Origin: Eudorina sp. 2006-703-Eu-15
Lineage: Eukaryota; Chlorophyta; Chlorophyceae; Chlamydomonadales; Volvocaceae
Direction: 5' to 3'
Assembly: GCA_003117195.1 (NCBI GenBank)
Contig: BDSI01000131.1
Location: 276,569 to 340,568, forward strand
DNA length: 64,000 nucleotides
The position numbers and the translations under genes are program-made. This document shows, piece after piece, positions 32,525-64,000 of this stretch (position 1 is its first letter; every line of letters begins with the position of its first letter). The notes beneath the pieces were generated by a model. The model made no database searches. It had not been told where the DNA came from and worked only from the letters and a program-made list of their open reading frames with translations.

Positions 32525-33852
<1,328 letters not shown>

Positions 33853-34182: not shown

Positions 34183-34255
34183 CGCCCAATGTGGGGCTCG
34201 AACCCTCGACCATAAGGTTAAGAGCCTTGCGCTCTACCAACTGAGCTAACCGGGC
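34183..34255 (-). tRNA. tRNA-Lys(CTT), degenerate
   Basis: Anticodon CTT is preserved, but pair 27-43 of the anticodon stem is C-A and the T stem has an A-C mismatch (GAGGG/CCCAC). Confidence 0.72.
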
Positions 34256-34357
34256 TTGACTGTAAGGGAGAAGTTCCAAAACTCATAGGTAACAACCGCA
34301 CGAGTCATCTTAGTGTTTGTAATAGATGGCCGAGATGTCAGATGTATGCACTGCAGA

Positions 34358-34429
34358 GTCCTCATCGTATAGTGGTTAGTACATCACGTTGTGGCCGTGA
34401 AGACCCCGGCTCGAATCCGGGTGAGGACA
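34358..34429 (+). tRNA. tRNA-His(GTG)
   Basis: All stems intact. One change after the acceptor (CATCGTATAG) relative to the unit c gene. Confidence 0.92.
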
Positions 34430-34622
34430 TACGTTACCCGTATGGCAGTGAAAGTAACTGCAATGTCCAGGTTATCGTTCCATACGGAAACTGCGTGGCT
34501 GCAACTGGAATGCAACCTCACATATGCGTGCATGAGTGTTCAAAAGTATTCGAGCATTGAATATGGTGTTGATATTTTATGGTGTTTATTTTATGGTGTT
34601 GATATTTATCTTGATATCTCAA

Positions 34623-34694
34623 TTCGCTATAGTCTAGGCGGTTAGGATACGAGATTCTCACTCTCGAGACCCGGGTTCGAGTTCCGGTAGCGAA
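34623..34694 (+). tRNA. tRNA-Glu(CTC)
   Basis: Full length. One T-stem change (GAGTTCCGG) turns a G-C pair into G-T, so it could still fold. Confidence 0.85.
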
Positions 34695-34714
34695 AGTATA
34701 GATTGATGAGCATT

Positions 34715-34796
34715 GTCGCTGTAGTATAGTGGTCAGTATCCCCTCCTGTCAATGATAAGAACGCGGGAGACCGGGGTTCGATTCCCCGCAGCGGCG
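34715..34796 (+). tRNA. tRNA-Asp(GTC) with intron, degenerate
   Basis: Intron present. The anticodon stem 5' strand is CCCTC against GCGGG, leaving one mismatch. Confidence 0.75.
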
Positions 34797-34870
34797 AATC
34801 ATGGACTATGTTTGCCATGCATGATGGAACAAAAATTATAGTACAATTGCCTATAATATGTTATAAGAAT

Positions 34871-34941
34871 TGCACCAGCCGAGAATCGAACTCGGGTCTG
34901 GTCCGTGGCAAGGACCTATGCTACCACTATACCACTGGTGC
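34871..34941 (-). tRNA. tRNA-Gly(GCC)
   Basis: Fully paired copy, anticodon loop TTGCCAC. Confidence 0.92.
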
Positions 34942-35466
34942 TGCATGGATGTACCCGGTGATCCTCATATCATTGCTCATCAAACTGAACAACGCTATGG
35001 GTACACCTTGACTAATCAACAGGGCGGTACGGTAGATCCCGTTCCGTCATCAATCAAAACATCCGGCATTGATGACACATGCCGGGTGAGTACAGTTCAA
35101 TGTCTACTTGTAAATATTGTTTATCTCAGCATGCATTGATTGGTCCAAAATTCAAACAAGTATCAGCAAACAGGGATTTTGTAAATCCGTATTTACTCTT
35201 CACACATCCTTAGGTGTCCTTTATCTAAGGACAAACTCATAGCTACCGCTGAACCATTAGTAGACTTTATTAGGGTTGTGAATTCATGTGCAAGACATCC
35301 TCTGGGCTGTAAGTGATGTGAGCATCTCAAACCGTAAATCGTTAGTTATACGTAGCTACAGTAGTTTTGGCTTCGATCACTACTGTACACATCCAAGTTA
35401 CATTTCTAATTTGACCCACACACTTGGCCAAGGCTGTGGTCAACATCAAAGCGTCAGCTATTGGCC

Positions 35467-35714
35467 GGGTTTCACCGCCCTAATACGATGAGGGAGGCGA
35501 TTGCCTGGGATCCGGCTCGTTTGGCAAAGATGTTGGAGCGCATGTGGGCTCACCGTAATTCTATCGTGCCCTTTGGGCGCTAGTCTCGTCGACTCCTGTT
35601 AATGCGGTATTGCAAACCAGTGCTTTTGGGCGTTTTGTTTGCCCTTGGGCCTCCGGCTCGTATGGGTATGTGCAGGTATGGGGTTACGCACCCCCAACCA
35701 TGTAAAACACACAC
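35467..35714 (+). other. Insertion within unit g with a coding-like fragment
   Basis: About 248 bp unlike any other part of the window. From about 35475 one frame reads MREAIAWDPARLAKMLERM and stops about 12 codons later, resembling the C-terminus of a protein. The remainder looks non-coding. Possibly the 3' tip of another mobile element; family unknown. Confidence 0.4.
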
Positions 35715-35733
35715 ACCACTATACCACTGGTGC
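35715..35733 (-). pseudogene. tRNA-Gly 5' fragment
   Basis: Only the first 18-19 nt of tRNA-Gly (GCACCAGTGGTATAGTGG) remain. The break marks the edge of the second partial unit g. Confidence 0.8.
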
Positions 35734-37238
35734 TGCATGGATCCAATTGGTGATCCTCATATCATTGCTCATCAAACTGAACAACGCTATGGGTACACCT
35801 TGACTAATCAACAGGGCGGTACGGTAGATCCCATTCCGTCATCAATCAAAACATCCGGCATTGATGACACATGCCGGGTGAGTACAGTTCAATGTCTACT
35901 TGTAAATATTGTTTATCTCAGCATGCATTGATTGGTCCAAAATTCAAACATGTATCAGCAAACAGGGAATTTGTAAATCCGTATTTACACTTCACACATC
36001 CTTAGGTGTCCTTTATCTAAGGACAAACTCATACCTACCGCTGAACCATTAGTAGACTTTATTAGGGTTGTGAATTCATGTGCAAGACATCCTCTGGGCT
36101 GTAAGTGATGTGAGCATCTCAAACCGTAAATCGTTAGTTATACGTAGCTACAGTAGTTTTGGCTTCGATCACTACTGTACACATCCAAGTTACATTTCTA
36201 ATTTGACCCACACACTTGGCCAAGGCTGTGGTCAACATCCAAGCGTCAGCTATTGGCCACTCAGCCATGGGCCACATCTGGCATGGCACACAGTAGAATT
36301 CGGGTGCCTGAAGGGCAAAACTTATGTGGTCGCCTAATGTGTTGACAAGCTACGTACTTACAACAACATCGAGTTTGGTACTCTATCGGCTGACTTCCGC
36401 TTTTGCTGTAACGAGCTGACGGCAAGATGCACCACAAATTTTGGCGAAGGAAGCGGCCTGACGATGGACCATTTACACTGCAGAGAGCACCCACACCAGC
36501 AAAAAGCAAAGAAACAAGCGACACGTGTCGCCGCGCGCCCAGCCAGAAAACGAAGTCAGCGCCCCAGCAGGGCGCACCAGGACGGCAACCCAACGGCACA
36601 GCCAAGAGCGAACGCCGCACCAAGACCGGCGAACAAGGCAAACGAAATCGAGCGGCGCGCGACGACGAGCGAGCGAGCACAGACAGCCACGACCCGACGC
36701 AGCAGCCACCCGGCCAAGAACACCCCAGAACAGCCCCCCGGCGCCAACTGCCAACGCGGGCAGGGGGAAAACCGCCCCATGCTTCCCGAAACGGAAAAAC
36801 CCAGCCAGGGCAAGCGCGGCGGGAAAAAATGGGAACAGGAGCCACAAGCCAAAAAACCCCACCGCCGCCCCGGCCAGCAACAGTGACCCGCAAGAAGCGG
36901 CCACTCTACCAACACACCCCCAACCCGGCGGAGGGCTGGCCCCTTGCCGCCTATCTATGGCCCCGTGGGGCGGATGGCTGTTCCCGGTCCGCCAGCACGG
37001 CCGTCTTTCCGACAGACCCCGCTCTTGCGGCCCCCCCCCCCCCACCCCATCCCCCCTGCGTCCTCCCAAGAAAAAACCCCGTCACGGGCGCCGCCCAGTG
37101 TCGGGCCCGGTTACCGGCCTTCACGGCCGCCGCTGCCAGCCGCCGCCAGCACTGAGGAGGATGGTGACCATGGGCGGGGAGAACGAGCCAGGGGAGGCTC
37201 GGGCAACAAAGGGATGGAAAGTGGTCACTCACAGTGAT
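35716..37238 (+). repeat. tRNA repeat unit g, right part (second partial copy)
   Basis: Restarts inside a tRNA-Gly and repeats about 0.5 kb of spacer already present in the left part, then runs through the GC-rich block to the junction palindrome. The duplicated spacer means this is a second truncated copy, not a continuation of the same one. Confidence 0.8.
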
Positions 37239-38109
37239 GTGAGTGCTCTCTACTGTGAACAGCAGAATGCCTGAAACAGGAGAGAGTGCGAAACATATCG
37301 CTTCAGTCAGCCGTACTATGCCGTACCAAACCTTGCTCAGTTCCTACGATCACTACGTTCCTTCGGAACTAAGCTATTGGCAAAAACGAATAGGGGAGGT
37401 GTGTACATGGAGTGCAGACACTACTACAGCTCCGGACGGCTACACATGGATTTTGCACCCCAAAGATCTGGAGTGTCATATTCACCTAAAGGGATGGTAA
37501 ATCCAGTATGAACGGAGGAAGGACGGAGGATGGGTGCACAGTCCATGGTAGGGGTTGATGAGGTGAGGCTCCATTGAGCTTTCTTGGCCGGTTAGAACAC
37601 CCGGTCGGGGTACGGGTCCACCATGTAACGGCTACAAAGTATGTACACTGTGAGAAGCTCAAATTGCAGCCCGTTTGGGGGCGGTCACAGTGAAATTACA
37701 GCAGACTGTAAACCTTTCAACTGAAAACTGTCATGTCTCAACCCTTATCTTGATGGTAGACTTGTTACATAATTTATTACACTCAGGGCACAGTAACCTA
37801 TGTCACCAGGGTGGTGGAGGGCTCTGGAAATTACTGGAATGCAGAATCCACAGAACCATGGTACAACATAGTGCCAATTAGCTCCATGCTTCAAAACCGA
37901 AGTGATGACAGAGCCGAAGTTGCTTGGTGCACCCATTGAAAGACTGCACTTTGTGTCCTGTGTCCTCAACTGTTTTCATGAATCAATGAATAAGAGCAAC
38001 ATGGATTGGCAATAACTTCCTGTGGACAAGTAACAAATGCATAGTGAAACATCGGACGCGACGGGACTGCGACGTGTCGCAATCATTACCTGACCGCTGA
38101 ACAATTGGT

Positions 38110-38182
38110 GGGCCTATGGCATAATGGATAAAGCGCCGGTCTACGGAACCGGAGATTCCCGATTCGATGCCTGGTAGGCTCG
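38110..38182 (+). tRNA. tRNA-Arg(ACG), degenerate
   Basis: Full 73-nt length with acceptor GGGCCTA/TAGGCTC and loop CTACGGA. The T stem reads CCCGA/CCTGG with two mismatches, so it is probably inactive. Confidence 0.7.
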
Positions 38183-38511
38183 GACGGAGGGGTCCTGTCC
38201 TCACCACAAATACATTGATACCTGAGAGTGATGCAATCGGAACTGGGGAACAGACGGACATAATCAAGTATGTCGATTACATCTGCAAGTCCAATTCAAA
38301 TATGGAGGAGATGATGAGGCAGGCGTTAGAGCAGAACCTGACCAAAACCTAAACAAAGTAGATGTGTGCTTGTGCAAACCCCTAAAACCCCAATCATGCA
38401 CCTCAACATAGGATATAAAGTGTGCCTTGTTACATGAGTGAATGTCATGTATCGTTATACCCACACACGTATAAAACTTGATATACATATGTAACACAAT
38501 TAAACACTCTT

Positions 38512-38584
38512 CGCCCAATGTGGGGCTCGAACCCACGACCACAAGGTTAAGAGCCTTGCGCTCTACCGACTGAGCTAACCGGGC
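38512..38584 (-). tRNA. tRNA-Lys(CTT)
   Basis: All stems intact; one T-loop change relative to 9568. Confidence 0.93.
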
Positions 38585-38686
38585 TTGACTGTAAGGGAGA
38601 AGTTCCAAAACTGATAGGTAACAACCGCACGAGTCATCTTAGTGTTTGTAATAGGTGGCCGAGATGTCAGGTGTATGCATTGCAGA

Positions 38687-38758
38687 GTCCTCATCGTATA
38701 GTGGTTAGTACATCACGTTGTGGCCGTGAAGACCCCGGCTCGAATCCGGGTGAGAACA
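38687..38758 (+). tRNA. tRNA-His(GTG), acceptor mismatch
   Basis: 3' acceptor strand reads TGAGAAC, one mismatch against GTCCTCA. Otherwise normal. Confidence 0.82.
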
Positions 38759-38918
38759 TACGTTACCCGTATGGCAGTGAAAGTAACTGCAATGTCCAGG
38801 TTATCGTTCCATACGGAAACTGCGTAGCTGCAACTGGAATGCAACCTCACATATGCGTGCATGAGTGTTCAAAAGTATTCGAGCATTGAATATGGTGTTG
38901 ATATTTTATGTTATCTTG

Positions 38919-38990
38919 TTCGCTATAGTCTAGGCGGTTAGGATACGAAATTCTCACTCTCGAGACCCGGGTTCGAGTCCCGGTAGCGAA
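38919..38990 (+). tRNA. tRNA-Glu(CTC), anticodon-stem mismatch
   Basis: Anticodon stem 5' strand CGAAA against TCTCG leaves one A-C mismatch. Acceptor and T arm intact. Confidence 0.8.
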
Positions 38991-39010
38991 AGTATAGATT
39001 GATGAGCATT

Positions 39011-39092
39011 GTCGCTGTAGTATAGTGGTCAGTATCCCCGCCTGTCAATGATAAGAACGCGGGAGGCCGGGGTTCGATTCCCCGCAGCGGCG
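39011..39092 (+). tRNA. tRNA-Asp(GTC) with intron
   Basis: Intact. This unit has only one Glu-Asp pair. Confidence 0.93.
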
Positions 39093-39166
39093 AACCATGG
39101 ACTAAGTTTTCCATGCATGAAGGAACAAAAAATATAGTAAAATTGCCTATAATATGTTATAAGAAT

Positions 39167-39237
39167 TGCACCAGCCGAGAATCGAACTCGGGTCTGGTCC
39201 GTGGCAAGGACCTATGCTACCACTATACCACTGGTGC
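39167..39237 (-). tRNA. tRNA-Gly(GCC)
   Basis: Fully paired copy. Confidence 0.92.
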
Positions 39238-40702
39238 TGCATGGATGTACCCGGTGATCCTCATATCATTGCTCATCAAACTGAACAACGCTATGGGTAC
39301 ACCTTGACTAATCAACAGGGCGGTACGGTAGATCCCGTTCCGTCATCAATCAAAACATCCGGCATTGATGACACATGACGGGTGAGTACAGTTCAATGTC
39401 TACTTGTAAATATTGTTTATCTCAGCATGCATTGATTGGTCCAAAATTCAAACAAGTATCAGCAAACAGGGATTTTGTAAATCCGTATTTACACTTCACA
39501 CATCCTTGGTGTCCTTTATCTAAGGACAAACTCATAGCTACCGCTGAACCATTAATAGACTTTATTAGGGGTGTGAATTCATGTGCAAGACATCCTCTGG
39601 GCTGTAAGTGATGTGAGCATCTCAAACCGTAAATCGTTAGTTATACGTAGCTACAGTAGTTTTGGCTTCGATTACTACTGTACACATCCAAATTACATTT
39701 CTAATTTGACCCACACACTTGGCCAAGGCTGTGGTCAACATCCAAGCGTCAGCTATTGGCCACTCAGCCATGGGCCACATCTGGCATGGCACATAGTAGA
39801 ATTCGGGTGCATGAAGGGCAAAACTTATGTGGTCGCCTCATGTGTTGACAAGCTACGTACTTACAACAACATCGAGTTTGGTACTCTATCGGCTGACTTC
39901 TGCTTTTGCTGTAACGAGCTGACGGCAAGATGCACCACACATTTTGGCGAAGGAAGCGGCCTGACGATGGACCATTTACACTGCAGAGAGCACCCACACC
40001 AGCAAAAAGCAAAGAAACAAGCGACACGTGTCGCCGCGCGCCCAGCCAGAAAACGAAGTCAGCGCCCCAGCAGGGCGCACCAGGACGGCAACCCAACGGC
40101 ACCGCCAAGAGTGAACGCCGCACCAAGACCGGCGAACAAGGCAAACGAAATCGAGCGGCGCGCGACGACGAGCGAGCGAGCCACGACCCGACGCAGCCAC
40201 CCGGCCAAGAACACCCCAGAACAGCCCCCGGCGCCAACCGCCAACGCGGGCAGGGGGAAAACCGCCCCATGCTTCCCGAAACGGAAAAACCCAGCCAGGG
40301 CAAGCGCGGCGGGAAAACGGGAACAGGAGCCACAAGCCAAAAAACCCCACCGCCCCCCGGCCAGCAACAGTGACCCGCAAGAAGCGGCCACTCTACCAAC
40401 ACAACCCCAACCCGGCGGAGGGCTGGCCCCTTGCCGCCTATGGCCCCGTGGGGCGGATGGCTGTTCCCGGTCCGCCAGCACAGCCGTCTTTCCGACAGAC
40501 CCCGCTCTTGCGCACCCCCCCTGCGTCCTCCCAAGAAAAACCCCGTCACGGGCGCCGCCCAGTGTCGGGCCCGGTTACCGGCCTTCACGGCCGCCGCTGC
40601 CAGCCGCCGCCAGCACTGAGGAGGATGGTGACCATGGGCGGGGAGAACGAGCCAGGGGAGGCTCGGGCAACAAAGGGATGGAAAGTGGTCACTCACAGTG
40701 AT

Positions 40703-41942
40703 GTGAGTGCTCTCTACTGTGAACAGCAGAATGCCTGAAACAGGAGAGAGTGCGAAACATATCGCTTCAGTCAGCCGTACTATGCCGTACCAAACCTTGC
40801 TCAGTTCCTACGATCACTACATTCCTTCGGAACTAAGCTATTGGCAAAAAACGAATAGGGGAGGTGTGTACATGGAGTGCAGACACTACTACAGCTCCGG
40901 ACGGCTACACATGCATTTTGCACCCCAAAGATCTGGAGTATCATATTCACCTAAAGGGATGGTAAATCCAGTATGAACGGAGGAAGGACGGAGGATGGGT
41001 GCACAGTCCATGGTAGGGGTTGATGAGGTGAGGCTCCTAAGAGCTTTCTTGGCCGGTTAGAACACCCGGTCGGGGTACGGGTCCACCATGTAACGGCTAC
41101 AAAGTATGTACACTGTGAGAAGCTCAAATTGCAGCCCGTTTGGGGGCGGTCACAGTGAAATTACAGCAGACTGTAAACCTTTCAACTGAAAACTGTCATG
41201 TCTCAACCCCTATCTTGATGGTAGACTTGTTACATAATTTACACCCAGGGCACAGTAACCTATGTCACCAGGGTGGTGGAGGGCTCTGGAAATTACTGGA
41301 ATGCAGAATCCACTGAACCATGGTACAACATAGTGCCAATTAGCTCCATGCTTCAAAACCGAAGTGATGACAGAGCCGAAGTTGCTTGGTGCACCCATTG
41401 ATAGACTGCACTTTGTGTCCTGTGTCCTCAACTGTTTTCATGAATCAATGAATAAGAGCAACATGGATTGGCAATAACTTCCTGTGAACAAGTAACAAAT
41501 GCATAGTGAAACATCGGATGCGACGGGACTGCGACGTGTGGCAATCATTACCTGACTGCTGAACAATAGGTGGGCCTATGGCTTAATGGATAAAGCGCCG
41601 GTCTACGGAACCGGAGATTCCAGGTTCGATCCCTGGTAGGCTCGGACGGAGGGGTTCTGTCCTCACCACAAATACATTGATACCTGAGAGTGATGCAATC
41701 GGAACTGGGGAACAGACGGACATAATCAAGTATGTCGATTACATCTGCAAGTCCAATGCAAATATGGAGGAGATGATGAGGCAGGCGTTAGAGCAGAACC
41801 TGACCAAAACCTAAACAAAGTAGATGTGTGCTTGTGCAAACCCCTAAAACCCCAATCATGCACCTCAACATAGGATATAAAGTGTGCCTTGTTACATGAG
41901 TGAATGTCATGTATCGTTATACCCACACACGTATAAAACTTG
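40703..41942 (+). repeat. tRNA repeat unit i (5' part, cut by gypsy copy 2)
   Basis: Contains the best-preserved tRNA-Arg. The unit stops at CGTATAAAACTTGA, about 35 bp before the Lys gene would begin, and changes directly to gypsy leader sequence. Confidence 0.82.
41572..41644 (+). tRNA. tRNA-Arg(ACG)
   Basis: The only fully paired Arg gene here: GGGCCTA/TAGGCTC, CCGGT-CTACGGA-ACCGG, CCAGGTTCGATCCCTGG. It shows what the truncated copies have lost. Confidence 0.94.
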
Positions 41943-41954
41943 ACCTTGACTTCA

Positions 41955-42241
41955 ATGGCGACTCCTTCCCGTTTCTCTGTTTACTCGCCAAACACCAACG
42001 CCGCCATTGCTCGCGTTGCTGGTGCAGGTCTGTAAATTATTCTGCTTTATTCTGTCTGTTGGGTCGACTTCCTGCGCTCACCTGCTGTAGCATCGCAGAG
42101 TCAACTCCCGGTGAATATCCGATCCGGCTGCGGATTACTGTGGCTGCACCGGAGCATCCTTCGCCAACGACTGTTCTGAACAACGCTTCGCCGACGACCC
42201 TCGTTCGGTTGTTGTCTGTCAAGTTCGGTGAGCAATCGTGA
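41955..42241 (+). CDS. Gypsy copy 2 spliced leader ORF (ORF0)
   Basis: Exons 41955-42027 and 42099-42241 (donor CAG|GTCTGT, acceptor ATCGCAG) join in phase 1 to give 71 aa. Without splicing the reading stops right after the donor. The pattern matches copy 1 (MAT, YSPN, AGAES, PGEYPIRL, ITV, LVR, VKFG) although DNA identity in the intron is low. The stop lies 43 bp before the gag ATG. Confidence 0.6.
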
Positions 42242-50763: not shown

Positions 50764-50776
50764 TGTTCCTTCATGC

Positions 50777-51492
50777 ACTCGGGGAAAGGCTCAGTCATAC
50801 AGTGTGTTTTCAGTCATATTCCCAGTCATACTCCCAGTCATACTCCCAGTCATAAACCCCTCCTGGTCATGCAGTGTTGGTCATATTCCCAGTCATAATG
50901 CGCCTCAGTCATACAGGCCCAGTCATACACCCAGTCATACCATGGGTCATACCGTGCCTTGGGACAGGCACCCGGTATGACTGGGGCCCGTCATACTGGG
51001 CATGCATTTCATGACTAGAACTGGATGACTCACCGGACCACAGAATGACTGGAAGGGCACAAAATGACTCATGCCAGTCGTACTGTGCAGTCATACCGCA
51101 GTCATACCGCCTGTTTCCATTCATCCAAACCCCGATATGACCAGTCATACTGCGTGCTCAGTCATGGCATGCAAGCTCTTGGCGTTCGTTATGACTGTGG
51201 CTGGTCATACCCTGCCCGCCCATCATGACTGTCGCTCGCCCATCATGACTGTGGCTGGTCATACCCATCCCGCCCATCATGACTGTGGCTGGTCATACCC
51301 ATCCCGCCCATCATGACTGTGGCTGGTCATACCCATCCCGCCCATCATGACTGTGGCTGGTCATACCCATCCCGCCCATCATGACTGTGGCTGGTCATAC
51401 CCGTCCCGCCCATCATGACTGTCTGTGGTCCTGGTATGACTCGTACCGGTCATCATGACTGTCTGTGGTCCTGGTATGACTCGTACCTGTCA
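50777..51492. repeat. GTCAT-rich region with 34-bp minisatellite
   Basis: First, short repeats of CAGTCATACTCC and relatives on both strands (50815-51170). Then about six head-to-tail 34-bp units beginning CATGACTGTGGCTGGTCATA (about 51190-51413), then two variant units. A near-palindrome of GTCATACCG and CGGTATGAC lies at about 50946-50981. No coding sequence. Confidence 0.8.
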
Positions 51493-51830
51493 TATTACAC
51501 GAACTGATACATACCCAGTCCACCCCCCATAAGCACCCAGTCCACCCGCCTGCCCTTTTCAACGGATACAGCAGGTCCATGCACTCCACTTGACTACCGC
51601 CTTTCCAATAACATAGATATAGGTCACACCCAGCCCGCCCTACTTGACTAACGCCTGCCCTTTCTCACTGTAGCAGGTCGCTCGTGCCAGGTCCACTCAA
51701 CCTGACTACCGCCTGTCCACTAACATAGATGCAGGTCCTGCCCAGTCAATCGGACCACTGCCTTCCCCATACGATGGATGCAGGTCGTACACCTTCCCAC
51801 TAAGATTGATGCGGGGTCGTACTGGGGCAT
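51493..51830. other. Degenerate repeats downstream of the minus-strand gene
   Basis: CT-rich text with three loose copies of a phrase like GACTACCGCCTGTCCACTAA followed by CATAGATGCAGGTC. It forms the 3' flank of the gene ending at 51831. Confidence 0.45.
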
Positions 51831-54662
51831 CTACCTGACCAACTTGCCTGCCTTGGGGTTCTTGCCAGAGGGCTTTCTGGCCGGCCCCTGGCCCCTGCCG
51901 CTAGGTGCCCCCTTGCCCACTTGTGCCATCACCTGCTCCAATGCAGCTTCATGCATCGCCTCGTACTCATCACCGAGCCCATACGCACCGCCACCCTGAG
52001 CAACTGCGGCTGCATATGCCGCCGTCTGGCCCGTCACCATGGGCCCCCGGCCCACTGCAGTGGTGCCCTGGCCCGCCGCCGTGGGCCCCTGGCCCGCCGC
52101 CGTGGGCCCCCGGCCCGCCACCGTGGGCCCCCGGCCCGCCGCCGTGGGCCCCTGGCCCGCCGCCGTGGGCCCCCGGCCCGCCACCGTGGGCCCCGGCCCG
52201 CCGCCGTGGTGCCCCTGAGTTGGCTGCCGGCGATGCCGTCCATGCCGGTCTCCAAAGCGTCAAGCTCCTGGTCGTAGTCCTCCTCGTGAGGCCGCTTGTG
52301 GCCCACTGCCGGCGGCCGGTCGAAGCCAACTGCTGCCGGTGTCTGCATGTGCAAGAGTAAGACATATGTGATAAAGATGAAATCATTGAAAACGACCACA
52401 CGACACTGGAGCAATACTCACCGTTTTGGGGTGCTCCGTCATGGATGCGACCTGAGCCGCCACAGTGTTGGCAGCCGCGGGCGGTGCTGCAGGGTTGAGC
52501 GGCGCCGTCTTTCTCTGCTGCAGCAACTTCATGCTGATCCCGTGGAAGTCTAGCGCTGCACGGCTGAGCGTGTCTGCGAGTAAAAGTATTCACTCAGGAG
52601 CACTGCCAAAATGCAAGTTTGGATACGACGAACTTATGTACCACTTACACTTGGTGTTGGACACAACCCACTCGTAGGCCCTCCCGCCAGGTGTCGCAGT
52701 AGCCAATGTACAGGTACATCTTGAGTGGCTCCGGCACTGAGGAGCCCTTGATCACGGCCTGCACTTATAAAATTGTGATGTCACCATTTACTCCAGGTGC
52801 CGGTAGCTGCAGCCAAGCTTACCCGGGCGAACCGCGAGCATTTGCCAACCTCCTCCAACTGATCCGCGATCGCCACGTAGCTGGGCCTGCAGTTCTCTTC
52901 CCAGTTCTGGCGGCGCTCCTTGAACTTGTCCGTGTACTGCTTCAGGTCGTCCGCGTCCTTAGTCAGCTTCTTGTTGTAGCATTTCTTTGCGTTGGCCTTG
53001 GCTTCCGAGGGGTAGCTGCAAGCAGTTGAAGTTAATGAAGGTATGTGCGACTCAAGACGGCTCTAGAGTCCTGCTTGGGCAACGTGGACGCACCTTTGGG
53101 CCTGGCTGTACAAGGCCTTGGGAGTCCCGGGGAATGTGAACATCCCAACAGGCTGCTTGACCTTTTTGCCCGCCTTCTTTGCCTCTTCGACCACCCTCTG
53201 GCGGTATGCATCGATCGCCGGCTTGTTGGCAGAGTAGCCTTCGTTGTAGTTCCCGAACAGGCCGTATTCGAACGGTTGCATCGGCAAGCCCCTCGAGTTG
53301 AGTGGACATGCCTCAGACAAGGTCATCGCCTACATGCCTGGACAAAGGAAGATAGTGAAATGTGAACAGGACAACAACAGATGCACTCCACCGATTGGCA
53401 TGTTGCTGTACTGATAATGCCAGTGTTGTATGCAAGCCTACCTGCCAGGGCACGTGTAGAAACCTCTGTGATGGCCGGTGGTACGCCATCACCACCAGTC
53501 CCGACCAGCACCAGTTCGCCCGTTCTCGCGTCGCGTGGGTAAAGGAGGTCCCCAGCTGCAAAATGGATCGTAGTAGAGCATGTTAGAACAACCTCAAACG
53601 CTCAGCTAATGAGACGTGCTGAATACTCAACCATTGCGCTTGTGCTCGTTGACCACACTCCTGAATCCGGCGTTGGCCTGCTCAAAGGCCTTAATGTCTT
53701 CCTCGACCTTGAAGCCAGCTTCTGTTTTATGAGAGATGAGGTGAATCCGCATGCAAAACCTCGGGCTTGAGCTTCGCCCCAGCCGACCGGCTCCTGCTCT
53801 TGATGACCTGCACATTTTCCATGTCGTCGTCATCACTTCTTGTTTCAGAACTTGCTCGATGTATGCCTGCAGGTTCCGTGGAGAACCGGAGCTCGTCTCG
53901 TTCCAATCCTCTGAGGGACATTTGGATGCAGAGGTCGCTGGTTATTAATCGTCTGGAAAACTAAATGAGGGATTTATTATAACATTGTGAAATGGAAAAA
54001 TAATGTCGAAGCATTAGTGCACATGCCTGGGTGCCCATGGGAAAGTGCGACGGTCAATCTATGACTTGACTTGCTCACCGTTGGACGTCGGCTTTTGGTG
54101 CTCACGGAAGTCGTATATGTCGACCTTGCTTGCCGAAAATGTGTTCGGCAGATACTCAAGTCGCTCGACCAGTGGTGTTTCAGTAATGTTGTCTGTGGAA
54201 CAGACCGACCAGGAGCGCTTCTGACCAACACTAGAGAGATTACCGACCGGTACAAGACTGACATGAACAGATACAATAGTTTTTATCTGAAGAGGTGCTG
54301 CTCCGTCAGGCTGCTGCCCAATGTGGGCCTGGGTCTCCATGGTATGGAGAGTCTAACAGAAAGTTGGTGCGTTGGTTGATGTATTAGGTAAACAAATGCA
54401 AAATATTTAACTCGACAGTCATATTACGCTGACTCCAGACAAAGCTTACTTGCTGAAAGACATCAGTCGAATTCTGGATCCGGATCCCAGTGTCCCACAT
54501 TTCAAGGTTGCCTCCTTGCCTTCAATGTCTGTGCTGTATCACAATTTTACCCACGCATGGTCATACTTATTCATCCAAGTCCCGTTGAGAGCGTTCGCAA
54601 CAACAGAGGTCTTGCACATGTTAAAATGTTGCCCGAAACCAAGCCTGCGCAATGCACCCAAC
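51831..54662 (-). CDS. Multi-exon gene of unknown function with GP(T)AAGR/Q repeat tail
   Basis: I recognise nine exons on the minus strand: 54551-54662, 54079-54352, about 53632-53930, 53442-53555, 53094-53329, 52823-53015, 52649-52758, 52422-52573 and 51831-52342, most with GT-AG borders and agreeing phases. Readable pieces include KYDHAW, YLPNTFSASKVDIYDF, EEDIKAFEQANAGF, DLLYPRDARTGELVLVG, MQPFEYGLFGNYNEGY, FKERRQNWEENCRPSY and FHGISMKLLQQ. The last exon has about eight GPTAAGR/Q repeats and a basic end (RKPSGKNPKAGKLVR). One extra G near 52680 and one missing near 52190 break the frame in G/C runs. The 5' end is not found; it may join the gene at 55130-57619. No domain recognised. Confidence 0.65.
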
Positions 54663-55129
54663 CTGCGGAGTCCGCCGTATCCATAAAGTGTTAAAGCCAA
54701 CATTCACATTTGACATAAACATGCCGGGTTGCCCTCACCCTGGTGACACACTATCACGCACCCTATCAATGTTCGCCGCGCACCCTATCAAGCAACCTTT
54801 AGCTTTCCAACTAATGACGTGACCCGTGGAATTCACCAATCACAAATACCCACACATCTGCGCCTGAAACATTTCGTCATGAAATCGTGTCGTGTACTAC
54901 CTTTTTCCCATAGGCATGGCACCTAGCTACGCACAACAGGCACCAACGCACAATCGCTCCGGCCCATCCATCCTTGAGCGCCGTAAGAGCAGCCAATAAG
55001 CGCGCATCGGACATGGACAGCCCCTTGTTTCACACTTGAACCTCACGTTAAGTGCATGGCTGCCGTCGGTCCGATGCCCCCATGCAATGCACACATTTGC
55101 CGCACCTTTCCCCACACCCCCTGGTCAGC
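54663..55129. other. Gap between the two minus-strand gene models
   Basis: About 470 bp, partly AT-rich, with TATCAATGTTCGCCGCGCACCC-like text near 54765. A further exon is possible but I cannot place one with good borders. Confidence 0.35.
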
Positions 55130-57619
55130 CTACTCAATCGGGTTTTTGATTTGGCAGTAGGGCTGAAGGCTGTGCTCTCCGAGCAGAGTCTCAGTGCCCG
55201 CCGCCTTGGGCACGACGTCTCGGAACGGTGTAAACGGGCCGTCCTTGCACGGACACGCGCCAGCCTGGCAGTCCTCATCCATCTGCTGAAGTTCCTCGAC
55301 CACAGGCTGTGCGATATCTGCACAGAACGCGTGCACCTTGTAAATATTGGTACAGGCAAGGAAACTAGCACCAGCTGATAATGTTAGCTCACCCTGCATC
55401 TGTTTGAGTGCCTTCAATGCAGACATTAAGCCGTCCTTCCATGGCTCATCCAGGTCCCGCACGGCGGCCCATCCTCACCTCGGCTGCTGGCGAGGCGGCC
55501 ACTGCCTCGAGCATCGCGCCTGACGCCGGCGGTGACGCCGCAGGCTGCCCCTCGTCCGCGCCAGCCTGCAGGGGAATGAAGAGAAAGCGTGTGCACACTT
55601 CCTTTGCATTCACGAAAGCACCTGCCTGTCCCTACACGGCGCAGCACCGCACGCCCGCACAAGTACAGCAGGTCCCGCACGGCGGCCCATCCTCACCTCG
55701 GCTGCTGGCGAGGCGGCCACGGCCTCGAGCGTCGCGCCTGACGCCGGCGGTGACGCCGCAGGCTGCCCCTCGTCCGCGCCAGCCTGCATGGGAATGACGA
55801 ATAAGCGTGTGCACACTTCCTTTGCATTCACGAAAGCACCTGCCTGTCCATACGCGGCGCAGCACCGCACGCCCGCACAAGTACAGCAGGTCCCGCACGG
55901 TGGCCCATCCTCACCTCGGCTGCTGGCGAGGCGGCCACTGCCTCGAGCATCGCGCCTGACGCCGGCGGTGACGCCGCAGGCTGCCCCTCGTCCGCGCCAG
56001 CCTGCAGGGGAATGAAGAGAAAGCGTGTGCACACTTCCTTTGCATTCACGAAAGCACCTGCCTGTCCATACACGGCGCAGCACCGCACGCCCGCACAAGT
56101 ACAGCAGGTCCCGCACGGCGGCCCATCCTCACCTCGGCTGCTGGCGAGGCGGCCACTGCCTCGAGCGTCGCGCCTGACGCCGGCGGTGACGCCGCAGGCT
56201 GCCCCTCGTCCGCGCCAGCCTGCAGGGGAATGAAGAGAAAGCGTGTGCACACTTCGTTTGCATTCACGAAAGCACCTGCCTGTCCCTACACGGCGCAGCA
56301 CCGCACGCCCGCACAAGTACAGCAGGTCCCGCACGGCGGCCCATCCTCACCTCGGCTGCTGGCGAGGCGGCCACGGCCTCGAGCGTCGCGCCTGACGCCG
56401 GCGGTGACGCCGCAGGCTGCCCCTCGTTCGCGCCAGCCTGCAGGGGAATGAAGAGTAAGCGTGTGCACACTTCGCTTGCATTCACGAAAGCACCTGCCTG
56501 TCCATACGCGGCGCAGCACCGCACGCCCGCACAAGTACAGCAGGTCCCGCACGGCGGCCCATCCTCACCTCGGCTGCTGGCGAGGCGGCCACTGCCTCGA
56601 GCATCGCGCCTGACGCCGGCGGTGACGCCGCAGGCTGCCCCTCGTCCGCGCCAGCCTGCAGGGGAATGAAGAGAAAGCGTGTGCACACTTCCTTTGCATT
56701 CACGAAAGCACCTGCCTGTCCATACGCGGCGCAGCACCGCACGCCCGCACAAGTACAGCAGGTCCCGCACGGCGGCCCATCCTCACCTCGGCTGCTGGCG
56801 AGGCGGCCACTGCCTCGAGCATCGCGCCTGACGCCGGCGGTGACGCCGCAGGCTGCCCCTCGTCCGCGCCAGCCTGCAGGGGAATGAAGAGAAAGCGTGT
56901 GCACACTTCCTTTGCATTCACGAAAGCACCTGCCTGTCCCTACACGGCGCAGCACCGCACGCCCGCACAAGTACAGCAGGTCCCGCACGGCGGCCCATCC
57001 TCACCTCGGCTGCTGGCGAGGCGGCCACGGCCTCGAGCGTCGCGCCTGACGCCGGCGGTGACGCCGCAGGCTGCCCCTCGTCCGCGCCAGCCTGCAGGGG
57101 ATTTAAGAGGAGGCATCCCAAGTGAGCATTACGGCCCAAGGACGCAACCTGCCTCTGTCTCCGTGACAAGGACCCCGTTTGACCGCCACACTTAGGCGGC
57201 CGCACCTGGCCCGGGTCTGAGGCGCTTTGCACGGCAACCGCCAGCTCCTCCTGCGGCGGCCCCCCAGTGAGTTGTGCATCCACCTCCATGTCCTCGCTTG
57301 CCTGAGCGGCGTCAGGAAAACATGCGCGCACATTAATAAACATGGCGCCCCACGTGACCAGGTAGAGGCGACAGAATGCCCTCACACTCTCAGCCGCAAG
57401 GAAGCCATTCGACCTTACGAAATGCGAGTTGCTTGACGCTCCTTACCACACAACAGGGAAAGGTAACAGGAGCGCGACCGCTAGCCGTAGCAGCATCTGG
57501 GAAGCATGCGTGCTCATCTGTAAACATGACGGCCCAAGGACACAACCTGCCGTGGTCTCCGTGACAAGGACTCCAATGCATTCTCGATCTAGCTGACTTA
57601 CCTGATCCGGCGCTGTCAT
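55130..57619 (-). CDS. Gene with eight tandem 87-nt exons (minus strand)
   Basis: Exons with consistent phase, 5' to 3': 57602-57619 (MTAPDQ, strong donor CAG|GTAAGT), 57206-57301 (32 aa, ASEDMEVDAQL...), eight 87-nt exons, 55393-55411, then 55130-55317 ending in TAG. Another exon may lie near 57440-57510 (CATGCTTCCCAG acceptor). Each repeated exon adds 29 residues, AGADEGQPAASPPASG then AMLEAVAASPAAE. The C-terminal 60 aa (EELQQMDEDCQAGACPCKD, PKAAGTETLLGEH) look globular. An alternative start at 57757 would give a signal-peptide-like N-terminus but overlaps the divergent gene. Function unknown; the downstream minus-strand exons may belong to the same gene. Confidence 0.62.
55479..57091 (-). 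repeat. Tandem exon array 1: 8 copies, 218-bp period
   Basis: Exons at 55479-55565, 55697-55783, 55915-56001, 56133-56219, 56351-56437, 56569-56655, 56787-56873 and 57005-57091, each flanked by acceptor CCCCTGCAG (CCCATGCAG in one) and donor GAG|GTGAGG, separated by 131-bp introns. Copies differ by a few bases (for example AMLEAV versus ATLEAV). Exon length is 29 codons, so any number of copies keeps frame. Confidence 0.88.
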
Positions 57620-57639
57620 ATCCCGTGTTCTGACTGCTG

Positions 57640-60600
57640 ATGCCTGCGGTTGCTGCCGTTTCAGGGACAGCCGCCTGGGTGACACGGCCGTGTCCAGGGC
57701 CTCAGCAGACGCCGGACCCAACAGAAGGTGCCAAACCATCAAGTGTAACCAGAGCACAGCAGCAAGATATCATTGATGGTACGTCCTGTCGGGCCCATGT
57801 CCTATCCCGCCTCTACAGTGAACCTTCCATCCCCAGCAGGCGCAGAAGAAGAAGCTCAGCTGGGCGGCGACCTGCACGTGACAGAGGAACCCCAGCCGGC
57901 TGAGGATGGTAAGTGCCGTAGCCAGTAGGTCATCATCGGCTACACGACAACTTGTACGACCTACCAGCGGTCGGTCGTACACACGCGTGTGTGTGCTTCC
58001 TCGATCGACTGCACCCGTCCCGGCCTGTGTCCTATCCCGCCTCTACAGTGAATGCGTGCTGCCCTTCCATCCCCAGCAGGCGCAGAAGAAGAAGCTCAGC
58101 TGGGCGGCGACCTGCACGTGACAGAGGAACCCCAGCCGGCTGAGGATGGTAAGTGCCGTAGCCAGTAGGTCATCATCGGCTACACGACAACTTGTACGAC
58201 CTACCAGCGGTCGGTCGTACACACGCGTGTGTGTGCTTCCTCGATCGACTGCACCCGTCCCGGCCTGTGTCCTATCCCGCCTCTACAGTGAATGCGTGCT
58301 GCCCTTCCGTCCCCAGCAGGCGCAGAAGAAGAAGCTCAGCTGGATGGCGACCTGCACGTGACAGAGGAACCCCAGCCGGCTGAGGATGGTAAGTGCCGTA
58401 GCCAGTAGGTCATCATCGGCTACACGACAACTTGTACGACCTACCAGCGGTCGGTCGTACACACGCGTGTGTGTGCTTCCTCGATCGACTGCACCCGTCC
58501 CGGCCTGTGTCCTATCCCGCCTCTACAGTGAATGCGTGCTGCCCTTCCATCCCCAGCAGGCGCAGAAGAAGAAGCTCAGCTGGGCGGCGACCTGCACGTG
58601 ACAGAGGAACCTCAGCCGGCTGAGGATGGTAAGTGCCGTAGCCAGTAGGTCATCATCGGCTACACGACAACTTGTACGACCTACCAGCGGTCGGTCGTAC
58701 ACACGCGTGTGTGTGCTTCCTCGATCGACTGCACCCGTCCCGGCCTGTGTCCTATCCCGCCTCTACAGTGAATGCGTGCTGCCCTTCCATCCCCAGCAGG
58801 CGCAGAAGAAGAAGCTCAGCTGGGCGGCGACCTGCACGTGACAGAGGAACCTCAGCCGGCTGAGGATGGTAAGTGCCGTAGCCAGTAGGTCATCATCGGC
58901 TACACGACAACTTGTACGACCTACCAGCGGTCGGTCGTACACACGCGTGTGTGTGCTTCCTCGATCGACTGCACCCGTCCCGGCCTGTGTCCTATCCCGC
59001 CTCTACAGTGAATGCGTGCTGCCCTTCCGTCCCCAGCAGGCGCAGAAGAAGAAGCTCAGCTGGATGGCGACCTGCACGTGACAGAGGAACCCCAGCCGGC
59101 TGAGGATGGTAAGTGCCGTAGCCAGTAGGTCATCATCGGCTACACGACAACTTGTACGACCTACCAGCGGTCGGTCGTACACACGCGTGTGTGTGCTTCC
59201 TCGATCGACTGCACCCGTCCCGGCCTGTGTCCTATCCCGCCTCTACAGTGAATGCGTGCTGCCCTTCCATCCCAGCAGGCGCAGAAGAAGAAGCTCAGCT
59301 GGGCGGCGACCTGCACGTGACAGAGGAACCTCAGCCGGCTGAGGATGGTAAGTGCCGTAGCCAGTAGGTCATCATCGGCTACACGACAACTTGTACGACC
59401 TACCAGCGGTCGGTCGTACACACGCGTGTGTGTGCTTCCTCGATCGACTGCACCCGTCCCGGCCTGTGTCCTATCCCGCCTCTACAGTGAATGCGTGCTG
59501 CCCTTCCATCCCCAGCAGGCGCAGAAGAAGAAGCTCAGCTGGAAGGCGACCTGCACGTGACAGAGGAACCCCAGCCGGCTGAGGATGGTAAGTGCCGTAG
59601 CCAGTAGGTCATCATCGGCTACACGACAACTTGTACGACCTACCAGCGGTCGGTCGTACACACGCGTGTGTGTGCTTCCTCGATCGACTGCACAGTGGAC
59701 AGTGGGCCCGCCCCGTGGATCGCCATACATGCGCATGGAAACAAATAGAACAACTCGTTTATGAATGACTTATGACAGATGAGCTGTACTGCGTGAGCCT
59801 AGCCAAGTGGTGTGTGCGTGTCTCCTCGCAGTGACCTCAACCTCCCGGGGCATACTTTCAAAACGAGGGTCCCTTGATTCGTCTCCAACACATTTCGATA
59901 CTGATATGAATTCCTGATGATATTGCCCCATATCGGCCGTCTGGCTGCAGCTTCATTACGGGCACATTAACTAGCGACAGTGCATAGAGTTGACCCAGCG
60001 GAGGTCCTATACCGCCGGAAACTGAACCACGTTTGTATTATGTATCAAACTGAAAGCTAGCAATCAACATAGGGAAACTCTCGCATGAACTTCGTCACCA
60101 TGTGACCCGCATGCCCACCCTCGTTTTTAGACACAAATCAACCATCTTAATGCAGAGTTCTGTATGATAAAGTATCCATAAGATTCCACAATGTCTTTTC
60201 CTTCCATTAGATGCAAGCCAACACGCTTCTTTGTACAACCACGCCGCCTGCACGACAGAGATTTATAGGCGCACATCCAACAGCAGCAGTTGTATCCTTA
60301 TTCTCGAGCTGTAAACAGCACATCACACCCCAGCACAGAGTGTACCATCGGGCCGGCTATCGATTAAAATGCAGGACACTCACTCTGGTGCATCTGGTGG
60401 AAGCCTCAGGGCTCTTGCACACAACATGCCCTATCGAATTACAGGATCATGGCCGCATTGCAGCAATGTGGTAGGCTTCATGTGCCAAAAGTACCCCTTC
60501 ACCAAGAACGGTGATCAGGCCAAGGTGGCCAACCTCACGTGCGCAGCGGACGGCTGCCAGGCAACTCTGCAAGTGCGCAAACTGTCTGAGGCTGGCGACA

Positions 60601-63311
60601 ATACCTTGGAAGTCGTGCAGGTTGGCCAGCATAATCACGACCCGCGCAACATGTCAGCCAAAGAACTACGGTAGGTAAGGGACCTGGTAGGGATGATTTT
60701 TTTACGAAGCGCACCCATGAAGGAGCTAACAAATTGATTGCAAACCCGATCCTGCACAGCCGTCTGAGGAAGCTTGGTGATCAGAACAACCCCGAAAATG
60801 CGTAAGTCTCCCCGACTTAGACCGAACACCCTCGATCCATGCGTTATGAGGATATTAGGTAGTTAAGTAGCCGAGACGATTCGAACCCGGATGTCTCGAT
60901 ACCAATGTTTAAGTAAGACGTAATACGGCGACCTAGAATGGTTATCGTAACAGCTGGCCACCATTGCTGCGCTAAGCCCCGGCCCTGTCTCTTACTTATA
61001 TGTCGGCCCTGCTTTGCACCCCAGGCCACAGCTGCGCAGCAACGTTGCAAGTGGTGTGGATATTGCCCGGGGACAGCATGGCAGCTACATCGAGAACGTA
61101 CATGATGGCGATGCCAACCCGCAGCTGCCCAACCATGTCCACCTTGTGCGCAACAGGCATGTCGCTCAGATGCTGCTCAGGCAGCACAATATCAATCTTC
61201 CAAATGCGCTGGTGTTCGTGACCTGGCGGCTGTGAATTCCCACAAGGGTGTCATGCCCCTGCATGATGTTACTGGTAAGCCCTGGGCCTTCTTTGTCACG
61301 CTGCCGGATGATGGAGCGCCAACTCAGCCACCAGCTACGGGAGCCATTCACGAGGGCCTTTTGGTGGGCAAGAAGACCGCACTTGCGGCCCTATCCATTC
61401 AGGTATGTCCACGCCTGCCACCCACTGTACCATGGCGCCTGGGTAATAGGGTCACGGCGGTTCTCCAGGCCACCATCTGACAGTCAGAACTGCTGTGTGA
61501 TGCTGCTGTGCACAGGTGGAGGACGGCGAGTACCTTCCACGCCTGCAGACATGCTTCGAGATGCTCGGCTGCCTTCCGGGTGGCTGGGCTGAGGTCAACC
61601 GCTTTAAGAACTCCAAGGTCTTTGGGATGTCCGGCAAGCCCCTCATCATAACGGACCCCTGGGCGGTCTCACCCCCGGTACGCACGTTGCCTGCCTGTCA
61701 CCAGCCTGCCTGCCAGCCTGCTGTCTGCCACCTGGCGGCTTCCCCACCTGGCCTGCCTGACACCCAGCCGCGCTGCAGCTTCTCAATTGACAATCACTTG
61801 GCACACAGCACTTGAACAGGTGGCCACCGAAGTGGCTGACCGCTACCTGCCTACCCATACCTTGCTCTTCTGGACATGCCTTGCGCTTATTGGTGCAGGT
61901 ATGCCACCAAGCGCCGTGCTGAGGAAGAGGCCACATACGCACCTCATGTGGTTGACAAAGTCCTCGACGACCTTGCCGCTCTCATCTGGGACCAAGTCGA
62001 GAACGTATGGAAGCCAGCACAGGATTACAGGTAAGAAAGGGCGGTTCACTCTAAATGCCCTTACTGTGCCCTGCAGAAACCCATGCTGCAGCTGACCGGC
62101 TGTGTCATTGTGATGGGCAGTTGCCTGTAAACAGATTTGGTTGCTGTGGCATGTCTCTTGTGCGTACACATCTTGGCAGGATGCGACGAGTCACGTCGCA
62201 TGGTTGCCTGTGTGATGCGTGCAACTCGGAAGCCAATGGCCATGCCACATGCAGCATGACACGCTGCATTGGGGCTGTGCCTAGGCCCGAGAGAGGATGC
62301 CTGTGCCTAAGCCCGAGAGAGGTTGCATCCAACTCGAAAATCCAACCTGCAAACTGCTGTGATATATAGGCAGTCTCACCCTGTCAACACCAAGTCATGT
62401 CGCATTGATGTTCGTATGATGCGTGACAAAATCCCAAACCCAACCTCCTGCTCCTCTGTTTGAAGGCTTCGCCCTGTCTTTTAGGGCTCCCAAAGATCCA
62501 CCCTACACACTCAGGCTAACACACCTATGTTCTGGTTTGGTGCTTGGCTCCTGCCATGCAGGGCGCAGGTGCTGGCGAACCTGTCCTCTTGCCAAGGACT
62601 TCCTGCTAGGCCGGTCAGCCTACAACCTGGTTGCCATGACAGTGGATCAGACTATCGGCAGCCACCGGACGAGAAAGACCTGGGTCCGGCTGTCATCTTC
62701 TGGGCTCACAGTGGACGTGGCCCCCTCCACGGCGGGCACTTTCGCTTGCCGTCCTTGGGTCTTCAGCTGCTGCGCGTGTCGTCTACGCTGACCCTCCTGT
62801 ATACGGCTATCTCAGTCATGGCACAGCGCCTGTTACGCGACGGCTGGTTGACTCCCCGGTTGACACTCCTGTGGCCGGCGCTGGCGCGGATGCTGCGCGG
62901 ATGGCATGGCTGGCGCGGCTGGCGTGGCTAGCGTGGCCCTCCCAAAACCCGGGCAGGCAAGCGTCCAAACTACACTGCCAATGACGCCCACTTGCCATCA
63001 CGGGCAGGGGCGTCCATGTTCCTGCGGTGGCAGGACCTTGAGGCCCTGGACGCACTGCATGCTGGTGCTGTGGCCAAGGGGACACACTGCGGGCGACCCA
63101 GGGGAAAATCGATGCTGCCCGGCAGGCAGGCCCACGGAGCATGATGGCCAGCCAGACTGTACGGGATCGCAGGGAGGCCATTGCACAGGGCAGGACGGCA
63201 TGGTGGAACGGCCAGGGTGTTGAAGGATCCCTGGCTGCTGGCCGCCGCAACAGCAAGTTTGCTAGCAGCATGGTGGAGGGCTTTGCGTTTTGGAAACCCT
63301 TCACCCAGTGA
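57640..63311 (+). CDS. Gene with eight tandem 72-nt exons and FLYWCH/WRKY-GCM1-like zinc finger
   Basis: Exon 1 57640-57778 (MPAVAAVSG..., ends QQQDIID in phase 1), eight 72-nt exons, 60319-60670, 60760-60801, 61025-61402, 61516-61677, 61899-62030 (a short exon may start at 61820), one or more exons about 62572-62930, and a last exon ending TGA at 63311. Phases agree across the joins I could test. The 60319 exon holds a finger: FMCQKYPF, TCAADGCQATL and VVQVGQHNHD, a CCHH pattern of the FLYWCH/WRKY-GCM1 type, a DNA-binding module common in Mutator-like transposases. Later parts (HDVTGKPWAFFVTLPDDG, EVNRFKNSKVFGMSGKPL) match nothing I know, and no DDE triad is evident. One-base losses near 61208 and 63075 break the frame. 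Confidence 0.66.
57837..59587 (+). repeat. Tandem exon array 2: 8 copies, 240-bp period
   Basis: Exons at 57837-57908, 58077-58148, 58317-58388, 58557-58628, 58797-58868, 59037-59108, 59276-59347 and 59516-59587. Acceptor CCCCAG (CCCAG in the seventh), donor GGATG|GTAAGT. Each adds 24 residues: AGAEEEAQLGGDLHVTEEP then QPAED, with GG, DG or EG in the middle. Phase 1 at both ends matches the donor of exon 1 and the acceptor at 60319. Introns of about 168 bp are almost identical and contain ACACGCGTGTGTGTG. Confidence 0.9.
59588..60318 (+). other. Long intron between exon array 2 and the zinc-finger exon
   Basis: About 730 bp. The first 100 bp repeat the array intron; 59694-59830 is a diverged copy of the 170-bp repeat at 63.4-64 kb; the rest is AT-richer and unremarkable. 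Confidence 0.5.
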
Positions 63312-64000
63312 TGTGCGTGGTAGAATGGGTATAGGGTGAAGGGCTGCCTATCTTGCTGGCTGGGGTGGGGCCTGCAGGGGCCGCAGGGCTGGGGATATGG
63401 GGAGTGCTTGTGTGCTTGTGGATACTATCAAACCATGGAGGCAATGGAACTCGTTTAGAAATGACACCTAATAGCTGCTGACGCCTATGTGCTGGACATG
63501 GCGTGACTGCCTCTGCACAGAATGGGGGAGGCGATGTGTGATGGACAGCGGCCGCCCCCCCCCCCCGTGGATTACAGTGAGTGCGCATGGAAGCAATGGA
63601 ACTCGTTGCAAGTTGCGTGGCTGCCTCTGCTGAGTTGTACTGCGGAAGCCTGGCCGAGTGGTGTGTGGCACGTGTTGTGTGAACGGCAGGTGCACGGAGT
63701 GGGGGAGGCGATGTGTGATGGACAGCGGGCCGGCCCCCCCGATTACAGTGAGTGCGCATGGAAGCAATGGAACTCGTTTCAAGTTGCGTGGCTGCCTCTG
63801 CTGAGTTGTACTGCGGAAGCCTGGCTGAGTGGTGTGTGGCACGTTGTGGCAAACCGCAGGTGCACAGAATGGGGGAGGCGATGTGTGATGACAGCGTGCC
63901 CGCCCCCGGTGGATTACAGTGCGTGCGCATGGAAGCAATGGAACTCGTTTGCAAGTTGCGGGCTGCCTCTGCTGAGTTGTACTGCGGAAGCCTGGCCGAG
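63312..64000. repeat. 170-bp tandem repeats at the window end
   Basis: At least three copies of a 170-bp unit (GATTACAGTGAGTGCGCATG at about 63571, 63741 and 63912) plus a degenerate one before 63560, running off the window. Each contains GAAGCCTGGCCGAGTGG, which resembles a tRNA A box. No coding sequence. Confidence 0.75.

Follow-up and report, generated by a model that had tools for sequence, protein, structure and literature searches.

The two tandem repeat arrays of the window, i.e., of the whole stretch of 64,000 nucleotides analyzed here, both reside within a repeated DNA transposon of the CACTA/EnSpm type, an assignment that can be regarded as close to certain. We consider it fairly probable that this transposon carries recombination-prone arrays of symmetric exons, one of which is joined to a CMD1-like enzyme possibly opposing silencing.

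The Repeat Arrays Lie Within a CACTA/EnSpm-Type Transposon

The element begins at position 50776 with CACTCGGGG and continues past the end of the window, making it wider than the interval 55130..63311 to which the sequence-only reading had confined it. Its terminal inverted repeats start with CAC, CACTCGGGGAAAGGCTCAGTCATA being present at the left end in the window and at the right end of contig C1250 (CACTC termini), and many GTCATA motifs form subterminal repeats at both element ends. With 40 of 871 candidates scored, the left boundary at 50776 was recovered from 16 further contigs; for the right end, 40 of 43 candidates were scored, and C1250 as well as 19 more contigs contain it. This right end is absent from the window because the underlying contig, C131, stops at base 64000. 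Besides the two gene models given below, the element shows the following features:

50773-50775: ATG, target duplication if the window copy and C1250 are one insertion, immediately left of the left terminal inverted repeat
50776..50799, plus strand: left terminal inverted repeat CACTCGGGGAAAGGCTCAGTCATA, the reverse complement of the C1250 right end
50776..51500, no strand: subterminal region of the left side, rich in GTCATA/TATGAC motifs and containing a 34-bp tandem repeat (sequence, TRF)
51700..54345, minus strand: tentative third element gene, several exon-like stretches with no known domain (open stretches)
63514..64000, no strand: ~171-bp satellite near the element right end; the contig ends within the satellite and the right terminus is visible in C1250

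A Pfam scan of the pieces of the tentative third gene gave no match, and a transposase of the Tnp2/EnSpm type is missing from the window copy. A stretch of ~270 bp (window 54776-55047) is absent from C1312 and C1648 and is perhaps a nested insertion. The satellite of ~171 bp (window 63514-64000) looks similar to one of ~239 bp in C1312, which is located there between the plus-strand array and the finger exon described below.

The target site duplications comprise 3 bp in both of the two pairs examined: TGT flanks the C1312 copy on both sides, and ATG lies to the left of the window copy and to the right of C1250, the latter pair counting as a target duplication only if both contigs carry one insertion. 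Aligned over 12,291 bases, window and C1250 show 27 substitutions, none of which falls between 53 and 60 kb, and the gaps between them cluster toward each contig's end. These few and end-clustered differences point to one insertion, so that the window copy and C1250 probably represent one locus and the breaks of the plus-strand gene in the window are probably contig-end errors. Provided that C1250 is the continuation, the window copy has a size of ~14 kb. Its host is probably a green alga: the genome yields 68 matches to the chlorophyll a/b-binding family, and the one examined comes nearest to chains designated LHCI and chlorophyll a-b binding protein, which we take as pointing to the green lineage. 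The apparent uninterrupted insertion site is given by seven tRNA-bearing units of the window, which the C1250 right flank matches over long stretches and with which the window left flank agrees for about a dozen bases before diverging. Repeated units of ~3 to 3.6 kb with tRNA clusters (Lys, His, Glu, Gly, Arg, and others) occupy window 1-20000 and 34000-42000, and a GT dinucleotide run of ~171 copies is found at 32591-32929.

In its own genome (181 Mb, 3033 contigs) the 218-bp unit of the minus-strand array (array A) yields 315 matches and the 240-bp unit of the plus-strand array (array B) yields 257 (16 of 17 candidates scored), array A being present in at least 21 contigs among the matches listed. 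The central region between the arrays occurs in 8 contigs, or seven loci if C131 and C1250 are taken as a single one, and is partly duplicated in four of these 8. Six contigs hold both arrays and their junction; the center is kept in three (window, C1250, and C406) and missing in C790 and in C1312 and C1648, which share a flank, the arrays nearly touching each other in these three. As the center is absent from some copies, the divergent layout is not fixed in the family.

Two Divergent Genes With Predicted Symmetric Exon Arrays

TRF places the 218-bp array at 55451-57109 and the 240-bp array at 57823-59693. All minus-strand units (8/8) contain an open exon-like stretch of 87 nt in phase 0-0 and all plus-strand units (8/8) one of 72 nt in phase 1-1, each bounded by a GT donor and a CAG acceptor. 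The sequence-only reading had described eight 87-nt and eight 72-nt exon-like units with symmetric phases, in 5' position and in divergent layout, and in all these points it was right. The gene models read as follows:

57602..57739, minus strand: possible exon 1 of the minus gene (spliced model; uncertain, antisense to plus exon 1)
57206..57301, minus strand: exon 2 of the minus gene, ASEDMEVDAQ...DPGQ (spliced model)
55479..57091, minus strand: span of array A, eight 87-nt exons (TRF, spliced model)
57005-57091, 56787-56873, 56569-56655, 56351-56437, minus strand: first four exons of array A
56133-56219, 55915-56001, 55697-55783, 55479-55565, minus strand: last four exons of array A
Peptide of the array A exon: AGA[D/N]EGQPAASPPASGA[M/T]LEAVAASPAAE
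55130..55399, minus strand: last exon of the minus gene, 89 codons and stop (spliced model)
57640..57778, plus strand: possible exon 1 of the plus gene, MPAVAAVSG...IID (spliced model; uncertain, overlap)
57837..59587, plus strand: span of array B, eight 72-nt exons (TRF, spliced model)
57837-57908, 58077-58148, 58317-58388, 58557-58628, plus strand: first four exons of array B
58797-58868, 59037-59108, 59276-59347, 59516-59587, plus strand: last four exons of array B
Peptide of the array B exon: AGAEEEAQL[G/D/E]GDLHVTEEPQPAED
60334..60670, plus strand: FAR1/WRKY-like finger exon (Pfam, spliced model)
60760..63311, plus strand: exons of the CMD1-like TET/JBP domain, frame broken in the window contig and open in C1250
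60760-60801, 61025-61402, 61516-61677, 61899-62030, 62562-63311, plus strand: the individual exons of the CMD1-like domain

The minus gene, composed of the possible exon 1, exon 2, the eight exons of array A, and a final exon of 270 nt that ends at 55130, gives a single frame of 399 aa in the window under predicted splicing, with every boundary in phase 0 and all introns GT/CAG. For the plus gene, 15 exons give a single frame of 843 aa in C1250, likewise under predicted splicing; the window contig breaks this frame near 61.2 kb. Over 100 bases the predicted first exons of the two genes lie antisense to each other, so that one or both could be mispredicted. In shuffles keeping the dinucleotides, an exon obeying the splice, length, and phase rules was obtained in 87 of 5000 cases for unit A and in 262 of 5000 for unit B. 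Judged from sequence, the arrays are likely to be tandem symmetric exons, and the N-terminal stretches encoded by them are probably disordered, with array B being strongly acidic and array A being Ala/Pro-rich.

A Finger-Like Exon and a CMD1-Like Domain Follow Array B

The finger exon is matched by the Pfam families FAR1 (E=0.00089; 20.4 bits, below the curated cut-off of 28.1) and WRKY (E=0.0015; 19.1 bits, below the curated cut-off of 21), and its fold model, with a pLDDT of 54.3, is too weak for use. A MULE-type identity of the element, which the FAR1-like finger had prompted, was rejected in view of the element ends, the 3-bp duplication, and the CMD1 match.

The exons downstream of the finger match CMD1 in the PDB with E=2.5e-23 (phmmer) and with 5.1e-22 in a second search. 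The match spans three predicted splice junctions, supporting the splice rules used. With the residue numbering anchored on the CMD1 residues in PMC7854593, the iron ligands of the HxD...H motif, H345, D347, and H397, are kept, and so are, within the strong alignment, the 5mC contacts R244, F245, and D350. The 5mC contacts F416 and R418 as well as S414 are also kept, but in a separate short segment scoring 1 bit alone. Among the vitamin C contacts, R244, T337, W358, T399, I356, and F371 are kept, as is S414 in the weak 1-bit segment, and three are changed (V342 to I, H249 to K, and S335 to A). The sequence thus argues strongly for a CMD1-type homology of the domain, and the conserved iron ligands and 5mC contacts make a 5mC chemistry of the predicted enzyme likely. 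The Pfam model Tet_JBP reaches 13.4 bits on the plus gene, under its curated cut-off of 34.9; applied genome-wide, this model found nothing, and the controls likewise gave nothing.

The plus gene was tried on nine copies, seven of which could be fitted, C580 and C790 giving no fit. It is fully open in C1250 and in C449, which has a different flank and in which the 605-aa core following the array is also open; C187 keeps it open to 543 aa, the end being altered, and it is broken in C406, C1312, C1648, and the window. In C187, 417 bp are inserted into the final exon of the CMD1-like gene, and the sequence upstream of array B is unlike the element of the window. At window 60853-60915, ~63 bp of intron are missing from C1312-type copies, and the surrounding stretch has weaker genome matches. 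No homologue of the plus-gene core emerged from the 7995 candidates scored at E 0.001, nor from genome_contigs or viral_contigs by scans that reach close relatives only. A search for diverged paralogues in the own genome returned 100 matches (72 of 111 candidates scored), those listed being all located in element-bearing contigs.

Array Length Varies Between Copies

The numbers of A/B units amount to 8/8 in the window and in C1250, 10/8 in C1312 and in C1648, 33/42 in C406, and at least 24/38 in C790. In copies where the B side alone is covered, array B comprises at least 21 (C187), at least 33 (C449), and at least 30 units (C580). Moreover, the unit variants stand in different orders in different copies.

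The conservation of the units was tested on full-length units alone, i.e., 85 of 93 for A and 173 of 196 for B, window and C1250 both being counted even if they are probably one locus. The GT/AG splice dinucleotides are intact in 85/85 A and 173/173 B units, a result favored by the selection of full-length units. Either the expected peptide or a version with substitutions is encoded by 76 of the 85 A units and 149 of the 173 B units, the remaining ones being frameshifted, scrambled, or stopped; exons of deviating length account for 7/85 (A) and 21/173 (B), and some indels resemble contig-end assembly errors. An excess conservation of the array exons was absent when variable columns were compared between exon and intron (A: 23/87 versus 41/131; B: 13/72 versus 38/168), and with such similar variability the data do not show selection on the array exons in this young family. 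From the subfamily-divergence coding test C112 was dropped, as it is too close and error-prone at the contig end. The sequence-only reading had suggested a linker of tunable length; the length indeed varies between copies, but tuning is not shown, as exon columns are about as variable as introns and off-length exons are not rare.

Transposase-Like Exons and a Second Family

Between array B and the finger exon, C580 and C790 are longer by ~1.4 kb and C1312 and C1648 by ~1 kb. In these four copies, the extra exons look like a CACTA transposase N-terminus, as first judged by motifs. In C580, the transposase-like exons fit array B in phase by hand reading. The transposase-like main exon, for which no Pfam match was obtained, is unbroken where matched in C580, C1312, and C1791, and it is interrupted in C790, C537, and C1512, among others. 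As judged from the gap lengths, transposase-like exons are missing from the window, C1250, C406, C449, and C187, and none of these five appears among the listed matches of the main exon.

The main exon is 58% identical to C292, in which another open stretch matches Transposase_21 with E=0.0024, below the cut-off. In the genome, the Transposase_21 model has matches in C272, C1702, and C1337 only, none of which is a copy of this element. At the array position, C292 shows acidic open stretches and no exon array was found there; this transposase-bearing relative has a 20-bp minisatellite of 56 copies directly before the transposase exon.

A second family of transposase-like genes (C1012), 32% identical over the transposase-like main exon and, as we infer, also of the CACTA type, has a series of tandem exons, 108, 108, 96, and finally 72 nt long and each in phase 1-1, placed after an N-terminal exon and ahead of the transposase-like part. 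In this family, a deletion of 12 nt retains the frame. Its oldest exon pair is no more alike than the introns (77/96 versus 71/83 identical). Of 72 candidates 40 were scored, and among the matches listed every one of these 40 contigs has the three units; the unit number of this family therefore looks stable. We read tandem symmetric exons as a recurring habit of these predicted transposase genes.

Proposed Explanation and Alternatives

In the explanation that we favor, two divergently transcribed element genes would each carry a symmetric exon array near the 5' end. As the exons are multiples of three with equal entry and exit phase, units can be gained or lost without breaking the frame. Gain and loss might proceed by unequal exchange, slippage, or gap repair, and the copies display from 8 to more than 30 units. 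Array B most likely originated within a transposase gene, because some copies have transposase-like exons after the array and the second family is built likewise. Copies of the window type would have lost the transposase exons, the array running by predicted splicing directly into the finger and the CMD1-like TET/JBP enzyme. This enzyme would, going by its family, modify 5-methylcytosine on the element DNA and thereby oppose silencing. In Chlamydomonas reinhardtii, 5mC is reported to occur rarely inside transposable elements (available text of PMC12458080); should this alga behave likewise, the anti-silencing step would lose weight. That the expandable arrays serve as adjustable N-terminal domains, and that array, finger, and CMD1-like domain together form a targeted 5mC eraser whose recruiting or activating strength is set by the repeat number, appears distinctly doubtful.

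Other explanations were weighed against this transposon model. Array B might belong to the transposase gene only, with the CMD1-like gene of window-type copies having its own promoter and starting at the ATG of the finger exon, so that the 843-aa fusion is not made. That ATG lies early in the exon, in four copies (C580, C790, C1312, and C1648) transposase-like exons still separate the array from the finger exon, and those of C580 are in phase with the array; on the other hand, the acceptor and the phase of the finger exon fit the array, and five copies (window, C1250, C406, C449, and C187) have no transposase-like exons in between. We regard a separate start as unlikely, albeit deserving real weight. 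In another view, the arrays would be nothing but the usual minisatellites inside a CACTA element, containing splice-like signals and either untranslated or translated without effect. This view fits with exon positions lacking extra conservation, with the existence of frameshifting units, with the second family's exon being no better kept than its intron, and with other tandem repeats (171 bp, 34 bp, and 20 bp) in the element and its relative, in which no exon reading was found; Chenopodium CACTA elements, moreover, have internal satellite arrays according to the accessible part of PMC8978399. Nevertheless, both unit types hold an open symmetric exon in the phase of its neighbors, which the shuffles reached in 87 and 262 of 5000 cases, the frames of both genes run through all eight units, and the second family has the same design including the in-frame 12-nt deletion, so that untranslated or inconsequential minisatellites seem rather improbable.

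It is very unlikely that the array lengths are assembly artefacts, even if several contigs, including those of the window, C112, and C449, terminate within the element and the base quality looks poor near contig ends: the overlapping contigs C131 and C1250 share the unit order, and C1312 and C1648 nearly agree in theirs while other copies differ. Hardly credible, finally, is the view of the sequence-only reading that a divergent gene pair of the host had its exons amplified around one promoter. It accounts for the layout in the one window; however, the center recurs in 8 contigs, array A is spread over at least 21 contigs among the matches listed, the units have 315 and 257 matches, and inverted terminal repeats and target duplications are present. 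Refuted by the repeated copies and the ends, the host gene pair was rejected.

Relation to Known Systems and Significance

In rust fungi, EnSpm/CACTA elements that have CAC...GTG ends and make duplications of 3 bp were described as carriers of TET/JBP genes, and an escape from silencing was proposed (accessible text of PMC12730594). The element reported here resembles these, as far as that text describes them, in its CAC...GTG ends, the 3-bp target duplication, and the TET/JBP gene inside the element. It differs in its host, a probable green alga, in the enzyme, which matches CMD1 by sequence, in the FAR1/WRKY-like finger that precedes the enzyme, and in the two expandable exon-like arrays. 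Within the literature searched, as far as its sources were accessible, TET/JBP genes inside CACTA elements have so far been described in fungi only.

CMD1 is the 5mC-modifying enzyme 1 of C. reinhardtii (PDB 7cy4-7cy8; available text of PMC7854593). The predicted enzyme shares a homologous catalytic domain with it, including the iron and 5mC contacts checked; unlike CMD1 as described there, it is encoded by a transposon, has N-terminal repeats and a finger added, and differs in the vitamin C contacts H249 and S335. A review mentions at least seven further CMD1 homologues for C. reinhardtii (available part of PMC11065753).

The tandem arrays within a CACTA element have a counterpart in the Chenopodium CACTA elements with internal satellite arrays (PMC8978399). 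Unlike in these, where the array lies near the 3' end and exons are not described in the accessible part of the source, the units here resemble symmetric exon-intron modules and occupy the 5' ends of two genes. For Chlamydomonas and relatives, KDZ transposons (Zisupton, Kyakuja) are reported (available text of PMC8226300); they are DNA transposons of green algae, as the present element probably is, KDZ being a group linked to fungal TET/JBP genes. Zisupton has 8-bp duplications according to the accessible text of PMC12730594, unlike this element, which makes 3-bp ones. EnSpm-Plavaka elements are named for the green alga Auxenochlorella in the available part of PMC12636532. In the literature searched, mostly without subscription papers, neither a CMD1-like gene in an algal CACTA element nor symmetric exon arrays in transposon genes were reported.

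With a CMD1-like gene carried by an algal CACTA element, the range of transposon-borne 5mC modification would come to include the green lineage; this suggests that some algal CMD1-like genes could be transposon-borne. Furthermore, near-identical copies with differing unit number would constitute a natural series for two questions: does the repeat number affect what a disordered protein region does, and do symmetric exons allow mobile elements to alter protein length without frameshifts?
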